NCBI RefSeq assembly: GCF_023721835.1
Contig: NZ_JAMKFE010000002.1
Location: 1-64,000 of the forward strand
Reading direction: 5' to 3'
Length of the DNA: 64,000 nt
From: Caldimonas mangrovi
GTDB taxonomy: Bacteria; Pseudomonadota; Gammaproteobacteria; Burkholderiales; Burkholderiaceae_C
How positions within the stretch are numbered: the stretch's first letter is position 1; every line of letters begins with the position of its first letter. Below are positions 3,372-26,396 of the stretch, piece after piece. Both the position numbers and the translations under genes were made by a program. A model generated the notes under the pieces. That model did not search any database, had not been told where the DNA came from, and was given only the letters and a program-made list of their open reading frames with translations.

Positions 3372-4106
3372 CTACGGTAGTTGCACTAACGGATCGTCGC
3401 CGGCGCGACTGGGAGCTGTCGCCGCGGCGACAGCGTCGGGCGAGAACAGGCGCTCGACCAGCGCGCGCTCCCGCGATGCGATGGTGTGGAGAAATTCACG
3501 CGCTCCGCGCATGGCCTTGAAGGACTCGAGGCCCGCCTCGAGAAAGCGCTGCAGGTCCTGCAAGCCGGCCGCCTTCGCCGGACCGCGCATCATGCGCAGC
3601 GTGGTGGCCCACATCGGCTTGCGCGTGTAGTGTTCCAGCGCGTGACCGATCTCGAGCATCAGGTCGATCTGTCTGACCCGTTCGGTGGAGGCGGCTGTGG
3701 CCTGCCACGCGAGCACATAGTCGGCCGGCCGGATCTGGGCGGATGGCAAGGCGCCCGCCATCGCGGTATCGAGCCGCTCGGACAGGGCATGCAGGGCTGC
3801 GAGGAGGCGTACCGTGTCAACCACGCCCTCGGGAAACAGCTTGACCATCGTGGGCACGATGCGGGCGAACTGCTCGTCGCGCGTGCTGAAGTCTTCGGGG
3901 CCGTACAACTCGTCGAGAAAAAAACGCGCCGCGCCCGCATAACGCGGCATCGCAAGCAGGTCGGCATAGGTGTTGCAAAAGCGTTGCTGCTGATAGCGCT
4001 TCAGTGCGTGGACCTTTGCGGGGAGGACCCCACCGCGCTGGCGCAGCGCGCGCTGGTCGAACACGCTTTGAAGATGCTGCAGGATCTCTCGGGCGGCGTC
4101 GGGCAT
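3372..4106 (-). CDS. FFLEELY-motif protein
   Basis: 244 residues, all-alpha, with the sequence RFFLDELYGPEDFSTRDEQF near residues 60-80. That motif defines the uncharacterised FFLEELY family, which is common in Burkholderiales and gamma-proteobacteria. No catalytic residues or membrane segments are visible. It lies upstream of fadD on the same strand and is divergent from the GMC oxidoreductase pair. No good ribosome binding site precedes ATG 4106, so the start is uncertain. Confidence 0.75.
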   Translation of the reverse strand: MPDAAREILQHLQSVFDQRALRQRGGVLPAKVHALKRYQQQRFCNTYADLLAMPRYAGAARFFLDELYGPEDFSTRDEQFARIVPTMVKLFPEGVVDTVRLLAALHALSERLDTAMAGALPSAQIRPADYVLAWQATAASTERVRQIDLMLEIGHALEHYTRKPMWATTLRMMRGPAKAAGLQDLQRFLEAGLESFKAMRGAREFLHTIASRERALVERLFSPDAVAAATAPSRAGDDPLVQLP

Positions 4107-4173
4107 GGCGCGGTGTCTCGGGTTTTTCTGAGGCTGAAATAGATCGCAGCCCCTAAGGCGCGACTGCGGAATA

Positions 4174-4698
4174 ATGCAACACTCGCTTGCGATGGAACGC
4201 AGAACCCTACTGAGGCTCGGTCTCGGCTCGGCCGTGCTGCTCGCGCTGGCCGGGGGCGGCGCGGCGCTGCTGCGCCCGGGCCTGGAAGGCGTCCGGCTGA
4301 CACGTGCGGGGCGAGAGGTATTGCGCGCCGTGACCCTGGCGGTGCTCGATGGCAGCCTGCCTCAGGCTGCTGCCGCGCGCGAGCAGGAACTGGCGCGACA
4401 GATCGCCCGTGTCGAAGAGTTCGTCTCGGCGCTGCCGCGTGCCACCCGGAGCGAACTTTCGCAGCTCGTCGGTCTCCTGGGCACGGCGCCCGGGCGCGTG
4501 GCGCTGGCGGGACTCCACGCGGACTGGACCGAGGCGAGCGTGCCCGATGTGCAACAAGCACTGGAGTCGATGCGGCAGTCTCGGCTCGAGCTGCGGCGGC
4601 AGGCTTATCACGCGCTGCGCGACATCACCAACGGCACGTTCTATGCCGTGCCCGAGCATTGGGCGCTGATGGGTTACCCGGGCCCGCCTGACCTGTGA
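4174..4698 (+). CDS. Tat-signal small subunit of GMC dehydrogenase
   Basis: 174 residues. The N-terminus has RRTLLRLGLG followed by a hydrophobic run, a twin-arginine export signal. The rest is helical and has the look of a gluconate 2-dehydrogenase subunit 3-type partner protein (LRAVTLAVLDGSLP, HALRDITNGTFYAVPEHW). It ends four bases before the GMC oxidoreductase, so the two probably form one periplasmic flavoprotein complex, the flavin subunit being exported with this one. ATG 4192, just before the RR pair, is an alternative start. Confidence 0.7.
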   Translation: MQHSLAMERRTLLRLGLGSAVLLALAGGGAALLRPGLEGVRLTRAGREVLRAVTLAVLDGSLPQAAAAREQELARQIARVEEFVSALPRATRSELSQLVGLLGTAPGRVALAGLHADWTEASVPDVQQALESMRQSRLELRRQAYHALRDITNGTFYAVPEHWALMGYPGPPDL

Positions 4699-23581: not shown

Positions 23582-23791
23582 TCAGTCTTCGAGGGTGAAG
23601 CCGATCTTCAGCGTGACTTGCCAGTGGGCGACCTTGCCGTCGGCCACATGCCCGCGGGTTTCGATGACCTCGAACCAGTGGATGTTGCGGATGGTTTCGG
23701 AGGCTTTGGCGATGGCGCGTTGGACAGCGTCGTCGGTGCCGACGGTGGAGGAGCCGGTCAGCTCGAGGAGTTTGTAGATGTGGTTGGTCAT
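23582..23791 (-). CDS. dodecin flavin-binding protein
   Basis: 69 residues, the full length of dodecin. The pattern [19 protein letters not shown], then [14 protein letters not shown] and the ending [11 protein letters not shown], is typical. Dodecins form hollow dodecamers that store or quench flavins; the conserved Trp stacks the isoalloxazine ring. ATG 23791 has an AGGAG box seven bases upstream, so the longer open frame is not used. Confidence 0.95.
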
Positions 23792-23901: not shown

Positions 23902-25191
23902 TCAGGCCGGCTGCAACAACTCTCCTCGTCGGGCGTCGACACCCGTGAACGCATAGTCCACCTCCGGCACCCGCCCGCTGACGATGTCTGCCATCGCGGC
24001 CCCCGACCCGCACGAGTGCGTCCACCCCAGCGTCCCGTGCCCGGTGTTGAGAAACACGTTCCTCACTCGACTGCGCCCGATGTACGGCAGGTTGGACGGC
24101 GTTGCCGGCCGCAACCCGGTCCAGTACTGCGCCCCTTGCCCGTCGGTCATCAGCGGGAACAGCTCCCGCGTGCGTCGCACGATGGCCTCGCAGCGGGTCA
24201 GGTTCAGTTCGGTGCTGTAGCCGTTCAACTCCGCCGTGCCGGCAATGCGAAGCCGGTCACCCAGCCGCGAGAACACCAGCTTGTACTCGTCATCGGTCAG
24301 TGAAACGTTGTACGAGTGCTCGGGCGAGGTCACCGGCAACGTCACCGAATAGCCTTTGGCCGGATAGATGTCGAGACGCACCCCGAGCTCGCGCGCGAAG
24401 GCCGGGCTGAACGACCCGAGGCACAGCACATAGGCATCGGCGCGCAAGGTCTGCACCACACCCTCGCGCGTCGCTGTGCGTACACCGTGCACCTCGTCGC
24501 CTGCTCGCTCGAAGCCGAGCACGCGGGTCTGGTAGAGAAAGCGCACGCCCTCGGCCTCGCACAACGCGGCCAACCGCTGCGTGAACAGATGCGCGTCGCC
24601 GGACTCGTCGCTGGGTGTCATGCTGCCGCCGACGATGCGGTCACGGCACTGCGCCAGCGCCGGCTCGATCGCGATGCACTCGTCAGGTGTCTTCATGTCG
24701 AGTTCGCAGCCGTGCTCGCGCATCACCCGTGCAGGCTCTTGTGCGGCTTCGAATTCCTGCTCGCTGGTGTAGAAATGCAGGATGCCGTGTGTGAGCTGGT
24801 CGTACTGCAGGCCGGTGCGCTGGCGCAGTGCGCGCAGTTGCGCGCGGCTGTACAGCCCCAGGTTGACGATCTGGCGGATGTTGTGGCGGGTGCGTGCCGG
24901 CGTGCATTCGCGCAGGAACTGCAGGCCCCAGCGCCACTGGTTCCAGTCGGTCCGCAGGCGGAACAGCAGCGGAGCGTCTTCGCGCATCAGCCACTTCAGC
25001 ACCTTCAGCGGTGCACCGGGGTTGGCCCAGGGCTCCGCATGCGAGACCGAGATCTGTCCGCCGTTGGCGTAACTGGTTTCGAGGCCCGCGCCGGGCTGGC
25101 GGTCGACGACGGTGACGTCGTGCCCCGCTTGCTGCAGGAACCAGGCGGAGGTGATGCCGGTGACACCGGCGCCGAGGACGACAACTTTCAT
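23902..25191 (-). CDS. dadA: D-amino acid dehydrogenase
   Basis: 429 residues, close to the 432 of the enterobacterial enzyme. The FAD Rossmann motif [20 protein letters not shown] opens the protein, followed by [14 protein letters not shown], and the C-terminus has [16 protein letters not shown], all DadA hallmarks. It oxidatively deaminates D-alanine and other amino acids at the inner membrane. It is preceded on the same strand by a tandem glycine riboswitch and an attenuator, which suggests that glycine or its breakdown matters for this copy. Confidence 0.93.
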
Positions 25192-25256
25192 GGAGCGGTT
25201 TCCTTCCTTCTCGTCGAAGCTCAACGAGTGCGCCGCTCCAGGGCCCTTGTTCGAAA

Positions 25257-25296
25257 GGAAAAAGAAAAAGGAGCGCGCGCCTCTCGCGCCGCTCCC
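25257..25296 (-). terminator. attenuator terminator between glycine riboswitch and dadA
   Basis: On the minus strand GGAGCG-GCGCG pairs with CGCGC-GCTCC around an AGAG loop (plus coordinates 25270-25295). A T-rich run follows (TTTTTCTTTTTCC in the transcript, 25257-25269). The hairpin begins directly after the 3' edge of the second glycine aptamer and 66 bases before the dadA start. In known glycine switches of this layout, glycine binding prevents termination; the direction of control here is inferred. Confidence 0.82.
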
Positions 25297-25477
25297 GCTG
25301 TCCTTGGTACCTGAGAGATTCAGGCGCCGCAGCGTGCGGTACCTTTGCTCCTTCGGTGGAGCCCTGTTGCAGGGCTCGCTCTCCAGTGTCGGCTGATCGT
25401 GTGGTTCAGTACGGGGCCTGAGCGTGTATGGGAGGTTGCGCCTTCGGCGGCGTGCAGTGCACGCGCTCTCCTGAACC
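25297..25477 (-). ncRNA. tandem glycine riboswitch upstream of dadA
   Basis: Two gcvT-type aptamers lie in a row on the minus strand. Aptamer 1 spans 25477 to 25403: its P1 stem is GGTTCAG with CTGAACC, and inside are GGAGAGCG, GCCGAAGGCGCAA and CTCAGGC. Aptamer 2 spans about 25390 to 25297 with TGGAGAGCG, CACCGAAGGAGCAAA, CTCTCAGGTAC and AAGGACAG. A linker of about 12 bases joins them. These are the conserved glycine-binding elements. The unit sits between a promoter and an attenuator and controls dadA. Confidence 0.93.
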
Positions 25478-25485
25478 ACCGCGGC

Positions 25486-25515
25486 AGTGTAGCCATTGCC
25501 GCATCACCCCGTCAA
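25486..25515 (-). promoter_or_regulatory. sigma70-type promoter of the riboswitch-dadA transcript
   Basis: On the minus strand TTGACG (25515-25510) and TACACT (25491-25486) are separated by 18 bases. Transcription would start about 25479, right at the first base pairs of the riboswitch P1 stem. The -35 box contains the dapA stop codon, so dadA has its own promoter even though it lies just behind dapA. The match is read by eye and is good. Confidence 0.68.
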
Positions 25516-26396
25516 ACCGGCGGGATCGCCATCACCGCCTCCAGCCCGCTGCGCAGCTTCTCACGGCAGGCGAGCGTCGGCGGGCGCATCGGCAGGCGCA
25601 GCTCGGGCTGGATCAGGCCCTGCATGGCCAGCGCCGCCTTCACCGGGCCGGGGTTGGGCTCGGAGAAGAGCAGCCGGATCCACGGCACCAGCTGCGCGAA
25701 GAGAGTGCGTGCTTCGCCGACGCGGTCGTGCTGCACGAGGTCGAGCACGCGCACGTAAAGGTCGGGGCGCACGTGGGCCGCGGCGGCGATGGCGCCGTGG
25801 CCGCCCATGCAGGCGTTCAGGAAGATCATGTGGTCCTCGCCGCTCAGCACCTGCAGCGGCGTCTGCTGGATCAGGTCGAACAACTGGTCGACGTTGCCCG
25901 AGCCGCTTTCCTTGATGGCGACGAACTGGCGGTTCTCGGCCAGGTGCTGCAGCGTGTCGAGCGTGATGTTCACCCCGGTGCGATAGGGAATGTTGTAGAG
26001 CACGATCGGCTTGTCGGTGTTGCGGGCGATCTCCTGGAAGTGCATCAAGATGCCTTCTTGCGATGGTCGCACGTAGTAGGGCGCACTGACCAGGAAGCCG
26101 TCGACCGGCGTGGCGCTGTATTGCCGTGCACCGTGCGCGACGTCGCGCGTGTCGCTGCCGGCGAGGCCCATGATCAGCCCCGGGGCGGAGCCGATCGCCT
26201 CGCGCACGGCAGCCAGCAGGCCGCGCTTTTCTTCGTCGGACAGCGACCCAGGCTCGCCGGTCGTGCCGCAGACGACCAGGCCGCGGCAGCCGGCCTGCAC
26301 GAAGCGCTCGGCCAGCCGTTGCACGGCGGGCAGGTCGACGCGGTTGTCACGGAACGGGGTGATGAGGGGGATCCAAAGGCCGGAAAACTGTTCCAT
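25512..26396 (-). CDS. dapA: 4-hydroxy-tetrahydrodipicolinate synthase family protein
   Basis: 294 residues, the standard DapA length. The Schiff-base lysine is in FVAIKESGSGN, the TTGE motif is in VVCGTTGEPGSLS, and the tyrosine/arginine region is YNIPYRTGVN. DapA condenses pyruvate with aspartate semialdehyde, the first committed step of lysine and diaminopimelate synthesis. Other pyruvate aldolases share the fold, so a catabolic role cannot be excluded. It lies upstream of the riboswitch-dadA unit on the same strand and downstream of the diguanylate cyclase, with a 327-base gap. Confidence 0.88.
   Translation of the reverse strand: MEQFSGLWIPLITPFRDNRVDLPAVQRLAERFVQAGCRGLVVCGTTGEPGSLSDEEKRGLLAAVREAIGSAPGLIMGLAGSDTRDVAHGARQYSATPVDGFLVSAPYYVRPSQEGILMHFQEIARNTDKPIVLYNIPYRTGVNITLDTLQHLAENRQFVAIKESGSGNVDQLFDLIQQTPLQVLSGEDHMIFLNACMGGHGAIAAAAHVRPDLYVRVLDLVQHDRVGEARTLFAQLVPWIRLLFSEPNPGPVKAALAMQGLIQPELRLPMRPPTLACREKLRSGLEAVMAIPPV

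Follow-up and report, generated by a model that had tools for sequence, protein, structure and literature searches.

The control unit between dapA and dadA

A control unit lies between dapA and dadA on the minus strand of the window, the 64-kb stretch of DNA analyzed here. It consists of a promoter, two aptamers and a terminator, in that order, and dadA is the next gene after this leader, with its ATG at 25191 and its stop at 23902 (Table 1). A cmscan search of the window against Rfam 15 gave exactly two matches above the gathering score, both to the glycine riboswitch family RF00504. The sequence-only reading had recognized two consecutive gcvT-type aptamers, and the covariance model recovers both of them at full length, with 52.1 and 52.5 bits against a gathering score of 32 bits. 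The aptamers are directly adjacent (25397/25396), and the pair is located 96 nt upstream of dadA. A single terminator follows aptamer 2 only, an arrangement of the tandem type with one expression platform. The cores GGAGAG, CCGAAGG-GCA and CTCAGG are found in both aptamers and are invariant in 33 aligned aptamers.

Table 1. Features of the dadA control unit and its flanking genes (positions in the window).
Feature	Position	Strand	Evidence
dapA, upstream neighbor ending inside the dadA promoter	25512..26396	minus	TIGR00674, 235.7 bits (cut-off 206)
-35 box TTGACG	25510..25515	minus	Promoter scan; contains the dapA stop codon TGA (25514-25512)
-10 box TACACT	25486..25491	minus	Promoter scan
Glycine aptamer 1	25397..25483	minus	RF00504, 52.1 bits, E 8e-8, 1-94 of 94
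GCCG, proposed outer P1 strand	25390..25393	minus	Just 5' of the aptamer 2 GGAGAG; putative pairing with CGGC 25291-25288
Glycine aptamer 2	25288..25396	minus	RF00504, 52.5 bits, E 6e-8, 1-94 of 94
Intrinsic terminator hairpin	25269..25296	minus	-20.6 kcal/mol; 5' arm 25296-25286 includes CGGC
Terminator U run UUUUUCUUUUU	25259..25269	minus	Sequence and hairpin scan
Shine-Dalgarno-like GGAAGGAA of dadA	25201..25208	minus	Sequence
dadA, 429 aa, DAO-fold FAD dehydrogenase (clade A)	23902..25191	minus	NF001933, 507.5 bits; PF01266, 240 bits

The remaining parts of the unit were also found by scans of positions 25150-25650. A single sigma-70-like site, TTGACG-n18-TACACT (25515-25486), was detected, with a mean of 0.0 in 50 shuffles. 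This is the promoter described in the sequence-only reading, including the dapA stop codon within its -35 box. The GC-rich terminator with a U run held up as well: one terminator-like hairpin, in two overlapping registers, was detected 3' of aptamer 2 (mean of 0.3 in shuffles). It reads GGGAGCGGCGC-GAGAG-GCGCGCGCUCCU and is followed by UUUUUCUUUUU. The presence of a promoter, tandem aptamers and an attenuator ahead of dadA is thereby confirmed. The folding energy of the whole leader is ordinary (z -1.13; equaled or surpassed in stability by 25 of 200 shuffles), and that of the terminator region has a z of -1.82 (equaled or surpassed by 9 of 200). As the leader does not stand out from shuffles in folding energy, it is the covariance model and the conservation that carry the case for the RNA.

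The -35/-10 pair with its 18-nt spacer recurs in six of nine near relatives, with the same -35 box in L015, L044, L045 and L048 and one change in L047 and L017. In these six, as in the window, the -10 box is situated 14-15 nt 5' of the GGAGAG of aptamer 1. In two further near relatives (L016 and L051), TACACT is retained but no clear -35 box is seen, and the last one (L050) was misplaced by the promoter script, its first aptamer being without an exact GGAGAG. Ten relatives at a greater distance gave no such -35/-10 pair; a -10-like box lies 10-12 nt before GGAGAG in four of them (L019, L025, L108 and L119). Conservation thus supports a real promoter within the near group only. Its overlap with the dapA stop codon looks incidental, since in the near relatives the promoter persists amid other sequence, at loci where no dapA was detected. 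A transcript starting 5-8 nt past the -10 box would begin within a few bases of P1 of aptamer 1. In glycine riboswitches, the leader strand pairs with the linker to form a kink-turn; with a start so near P1, little or no leader strand would be left for it here.

The dadA product exceeds the cut-off of the D-amino acid dehydrogenase family NF001933 (507.5 against 383 bits) and falls far below that of the glycine oxidase ThiO (TIGR02352, 133.4 against 250.8 bits). The solved structures nearest by sequence are glycine oxidases. No DadA is among the PDB matches, so this nearness says little, and perhaps no closer relative has been solved. Glycine and D-alanine as substrates cannot be separated from the DadA sequence alone. 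An AlphaFold model of DadA, built on 13 alignment rows, was set aside as poor (mean pLDDT 63.9).

Distribution of the riboswitch among DadA genes

The genome of the window encodes three DadA-type proteins over or near the 383-bit cut-off: the C6 copy (677 bits), the dadA described here (507 bits) and the C3 copy (L158, G000:C3:167250-168512), which with 364.5 bits remains below it. The 500 bases upstream of the C6 and C3 copies (L152 and L158) gave no Rfam match up to E 1, and among the three genes only the dadA described here therefore has the switch.

The linkage was surveyed in 299 genomes of the same family, beginning with a set of 60 genomes in which the positions of the 150 strongest aptamer matches were compared with those of 109 DadA homologues (E 1e-60 or better). 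An aptamer lies 28-99 nt upstream of all 18 homologues with at least 60% identity, which come from 17 genomes. At 59% identity or less, 9 of 91 are linked among the matches listed, all of them at 38-42%, and these nine are exactly the NF009074 genes of the 60 genomes. Two groups were followed in the extension: clade A, defined by E 1e-160 or better to the DadA of the window, and NF009074, a second, non-orthologous DadA subfamily. The extension covered the upstream stretch of each additional gene of either group. A riboswitch precedes 82 of the 85 clade-A genes in the 299 genomes (18/19 in the first 60 genomes, 13/14 by Rfam and 51/52 by our model R1) and 52 of the 55 NF009074 genes (9/9 in the first 60 genomes, 42/45 by R1 and 1/1 by Rfam, in G114). 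For the six unlinked genes (in G032, G130 and G161, and in G080 and G184, plus one of the two G188 genes), Rfam detected no riboswitch within 1.2 kb upstream.

The model R1 was trained on 31 dadA-linked and two gcvT-linked aptamers, and it consequently leans to clade A. In a check free of R1, the three core motifs occur in order in 51 of 52 clade-A stretches, in 38 of 45 NF009074 stretches and in none of 194 shuffled strands. An Rfam re-scan of nine R1-based NF009074 calls, mostly the weakest-scoring ones or those without the core triad, confirmed all nine.

Among the best 80 loci in the genome collection, 48 have a riboswitch within 400 nt of dadA according to R1, and tandem aptamers recur ahead of dadA in relatives. 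The linked loci include Variovorax, Acidovorax, Cupriavidus, Rubrivivax, Ideonella, Sphaerotilus, Limnobacter, Polaromonas and Aquabacterium. In Variovorax sp. J22P240 (L119:3123-4664), two successive copies of a tandem riboswitch with a DadA-type gene are present, the upstream copy (3393-4664, PF01266) being diverged. The other 32 loci are unlinked, 21 of them titled Marinobacter; Rfam, run on 14 of the 32 (including L064, in which the upstream sequence is present), gave no glycine aptamer. In the plasmid collection, 225 records have relatives, all below 60% identity to the DadA of the window.

A tree of 125 DadA proteins, built by a quick search with SH-aLRT support only, with long branches flagged and with the short L142 and near-copies dropped, contains 68 linked rows. 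Sixty of these belong to a single set of 88 (support 96), and the remaining eight to the NF009074 set (support 100). The linkage label changes 11 times on this tree, against 41 in shuffles. The clade-A DadA proteins of Marinobacter (63-66% identical; L065, L070-L074, L078-L080, L082, L084, L086, L087, L092, L098, L100, L102, L105, L110, L121 and L122) have no riboswitch and are nested in a mostly betaproteobacterial clade. A horizontal transfer without the leader is possible. Such Marinobacter-type homologues without a riboswitch make up 18 rows of the tree and count against the model proposed below.

Judged by its sequence, the RNA is an ordinary member of the glycine riboswitch class with predicted glycine binding, and its target is unusual but clade-wide. 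The control had been described as dedicated to dadA, and the neighborhood agrees with this, as a single gene is concerned and no window neighbor occurs in more than seven of 80 related loci (dapA in none, dodecin in one, an elongation-factor-like gene in five). Since these neighbors do not recur with dadA, the operon context gives no clue to the substrate. In the window itself, a dodecin gene (23582-23791, PF07311, 101 bits; start read by eye) follows dadA after ~110 nt on the same strand.

Clade A is present in 84 and NF009074 in 52 of the 299 genomes, and both together in none. A co-occurrence in 14.6 genomes would be expected (hypergeometric P 4.8e-9, not corrected for kinship). In the 60-genome set, with 18 clade-A and nine NF009074 genomes, P is 0.03. 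Hand reading of the tables shows at least seven genera, including that of the window, in which some species has clade A and a different one has NF009074. This exclusion, together with the swap between species of one genus, is as expected of two interchangeable enzymes for one job.

Switch direction and the role of DadA

The layout of the leader suggests the direction of the switch. A GCCG just 5' of aptamer 2 could pair with a CGGC at its 3' end and thereby lengthen P1. In the window, this CGGC also belongs to the 5' arm of the terminator, and a lengthened P1 and the terminator would hence be mutually exclusive, as expected of an ON switch; the three inner P1 pairs, however, lie outside the terminator. 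Among 59 leaders whose genes are distinct within the first 120 DadA residues (65 before thinning), GCCG and CGGC are both present in 45 and both missing in 11; CGGC stands alone in three and GCCG in none. The third P1 pair of aptamer 2 forms in 49 of the 59 leaders with four pair types, against a mean of 30.9 in shuffles, none of 2000 being as high, without correction for kinship. For the fourth pair, no covariation is seen (13 leaders, compared with 11.0 in shuffles), and the third pair of the window itself is an unpaired A-C.

When the lengthened P1 is enforced, the predicted energy is -44.8 against -60.2 kcal/mol for the terminator fold, a cost of ~15 kcal/mol, and a fold that combines the inner P1 with the terminator is possible at -55.7 kcal/mol. 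Because the equilibrium favors the terminator and tolerates the inner P1, an ON switch would depend on folding during transcription together with the binding of glycine. We infer an ON switch on the basis of the layout. Clear U-tracted terminators were recognized by eye in the window, in the Limnobacter-type leaders L055-L057, L059 and L060, in the Cupriavidus-type leaders L081, L089, L093, L095 and L101 and in Variovorax L119. Many leaders of relatives have no clear U-tracted terminator, so the mechanism is not uniform and other platforms must exist in the clade. A loose scan marked 36 of the 59 leaders; it includes hairpins without real U runs, and no count was drawn from it.

It is probable, in our view, that the leader is a glycine-activated attenuator dedicated to dadA and that DadA oxidizes glycine to glyoxylate, either alongside the glycine cleavage system or as a substitute for it. 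RNA polymerase would start at the promoter overlapping the end of dapA and would transcribe the two aptamers first. At low glycine, formation of the GC-rich hairpin that follows aptamer 2 would stop transcription at the U run. At high glycine, aptamer 2 would be locked, and its P1, lengthened by GCCG-CGGC, would hold the 5' arm of the terminator, resulting in read-through into dadA. DadA, a DAO-fold flavin dehydrogenase, would then oxidize excess glycine, with glyoxylate and ammonia as products, and the glyoxylate would be taken up by malate synthase G. As in other DadA enzymes, its electron transfer may be membrane-linked. The enzyme would act beside the glycine cleavage system where this is present, as in the genome of the window, and in its place where it is missing.

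The genome of the window has four glycine aptamers in all, the dadA pair and a pair before gcvT, with gcvP near gcvT on the same strand. Taking the lack of any match at E 1e-50 as absence, gcvP is missing in 40 of the 299 genomes, 14 of which are clade-A genomes. Thirteen of these 14 are also without gcvT above the cut-off; in the remaining genome (G209, 81% complete), gcvT is present, and incompleteness probably explains the missing gcvP. In 12 of the 13, every glycine aptamer found stands before dadA, and the thirteenth (G130) has none. These 12 span seven genera, and several are drafts in many contigs. A gcvT relative of 144 bits (cut-off 236) occurs in G110, and traces occur in G031 and G239. 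One further genome, G006, has gcvP-like pieces below the cut-off, no gcvT, and aptamers at dadA only. Malate synthase G was found in all 15 genomes searched (the 13, G006 and that of the window), over its cut-off in 13.

The loss of gcvP is not significantly enriched with clade A (14/84 against 26/215, p 0.34), nor in near-complete genomes (13/79 against 16/188, p 0.083), nor with either kind of DadA (p 0.12). With no significant enrichment, the loss of the glycine cleavage system has no statistical predictive value for the gene. It was dropped as statistical support for the role of DadA (p 0.08-0.34 over 299 genomes), and only the 12-genome pattern is used, qualitatively.

Glycine riboswitches at further sites were seen in at least two genomes of the survey. 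In G007 (L164:101-1504), a third tandem riboswitch precedes a homologue of a branched-chain amino acid ABC substrate-binding protein (NF011933, 235 bits, below the cut-off of 477). In G028 (L165:3406-3625), a third tandem array lies at C131:3905-4124 on the minus strand; the nearest same-strand ORF of at least 200 aa (2127-2861) starts ~545 nt downstream and has no Pfam match.

Glycine could also be the inducing signal for an enzyme with another substrate, a small amino acid that rises with glycine or comes from the same source, such as sarcosine, D-serine, D-threonine or D-alanine from peptidoglycan turnover. The enzyme does score as a D-amino acid dehydrogenase, over the NF001933 cut-off, and DAO-fold enzymes take many small amino acids. 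We nevertheless consider a signal without substrate role rather unlikely, because two DadA subfamilies that co-occur in none of the 299 genomes stand under one glycine sensor, for which glycine as shared substrate is the simplest explanation, and because in the 12 genomes without gcvP and gcvT above the cut-off all glycine aptamers found are at dadA. The direction of the switch separates glycine disposal, which would go with an ON switch, from a sparing of D-alanine, which would go with an OFF switch. In the latter case, glycine would compete with alanine in peptidoglycan synthesis, and high glycine would turn dadA off. Canonical DadA breaks down D-alanine, and glycine is toxic through the cell wall, both of which speak for such cross-talk. 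OFF glycine switches exist (PMC6944388). The cross-talk is nonetheless improbable, more so than a purely inducing glycine, as the terminator 5' arm with the CGGC of the proposed P1 extension has the layout expected of an ON switch. Moreover, if D-alanine sparing were the aim, the higher-scoring C6 DadA should carry the switch, yet the 500 bases upstream of that gene gave no Rfam match.

An inherited leader without regulatory function would be in line with the unremarkable folding energy of the whole leader (z -1.13). The core motifs are, however, invariant in the 33 aligned aptamers, 82 of the 85 clade-A genes are linked, and the promoter is kept in near relatives, which makes this explanation very improbable.

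The glycine-oxidizing role proposed in the sequence-only reading has thus gained comparative support from the clade-wide linkage, from the second, non-co-occurring DadA subfamily and from the retention of the gene in genomes in which no glycine cleavage system was found, while the substrate itself is one that we infer. In a wider form, the proposal states that the DadA proteins of clade A and of NF009074 are both glycine dehydrogenases under riboswitch control, each able to stand in for the other, in an unrecognized route from glycine over glyoxylate to malate; for this, the chances appear about even. Such a route would supplement the glycine cleavage system in this Burkholderiales family and would replace it in several genera, and genes now called D-amino acid dehydrogenase would need new names. 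A riboswitch tells what the cell wants a gene to answer to, and it therefore offers a testable substrate for two flavoenzyme groups, whose name of D-amino acid dehydrogenase may be wrong. It also proposes how bacteria without a glycine cleavage system may dispose of glycine.

Comparison with known glycine riboswitches and DAO-fold enzymes

In the accessible text of the surveys, the targets of glycine riboswitches are gcv genes, transporters, serine genes, serC and malate synthase (PMC3766115, PMC2211319, PMC6944388, PMC12452182), and a survey table lists thiO (COG0665) under the TPP riboswitches of Bacillota (PMC12452182). No paper linking a glycine riboswitch to dadA was found in the open full-text literature, the search covering main texts. 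In the accessible text of PMC2258182, neither dadA nor "amino acid dehydrogenase" was found, and in that of PMC5760752, a riboswitch and a D-amino acid dehydrogenase are mentioned in unrelated places. It is possible that dadA is already listed in Additional file 5 of PMC3766115 or in RegPrecise. Within the literature searched, we thus found no description of dadA as a target of the glycine riboswitch, a class which is itself known.

The leader resembles the gcvT-type tandem glycine riboswitch (RF00504) in its tandem aptamers, its single platform and its attenuator layout, and likewise precedes a gene that could consume glycine. The target is different, being here a single gene for a DAO-type flavin dehydrogenase. 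The dadA product shares the DAO fold family with canonical DadA and exceeds the same family cut-off (NF001933), but it belongs to a separate clade and is 45% identical to the canonical copy on C6, for which the 500 upstream bases gave no Rfam match. With the glycine oxidase ThiO it shares the DAO superfamily, and its nearest solved structures are glycine oxidases, although its score is far below the ThiO cut-off.
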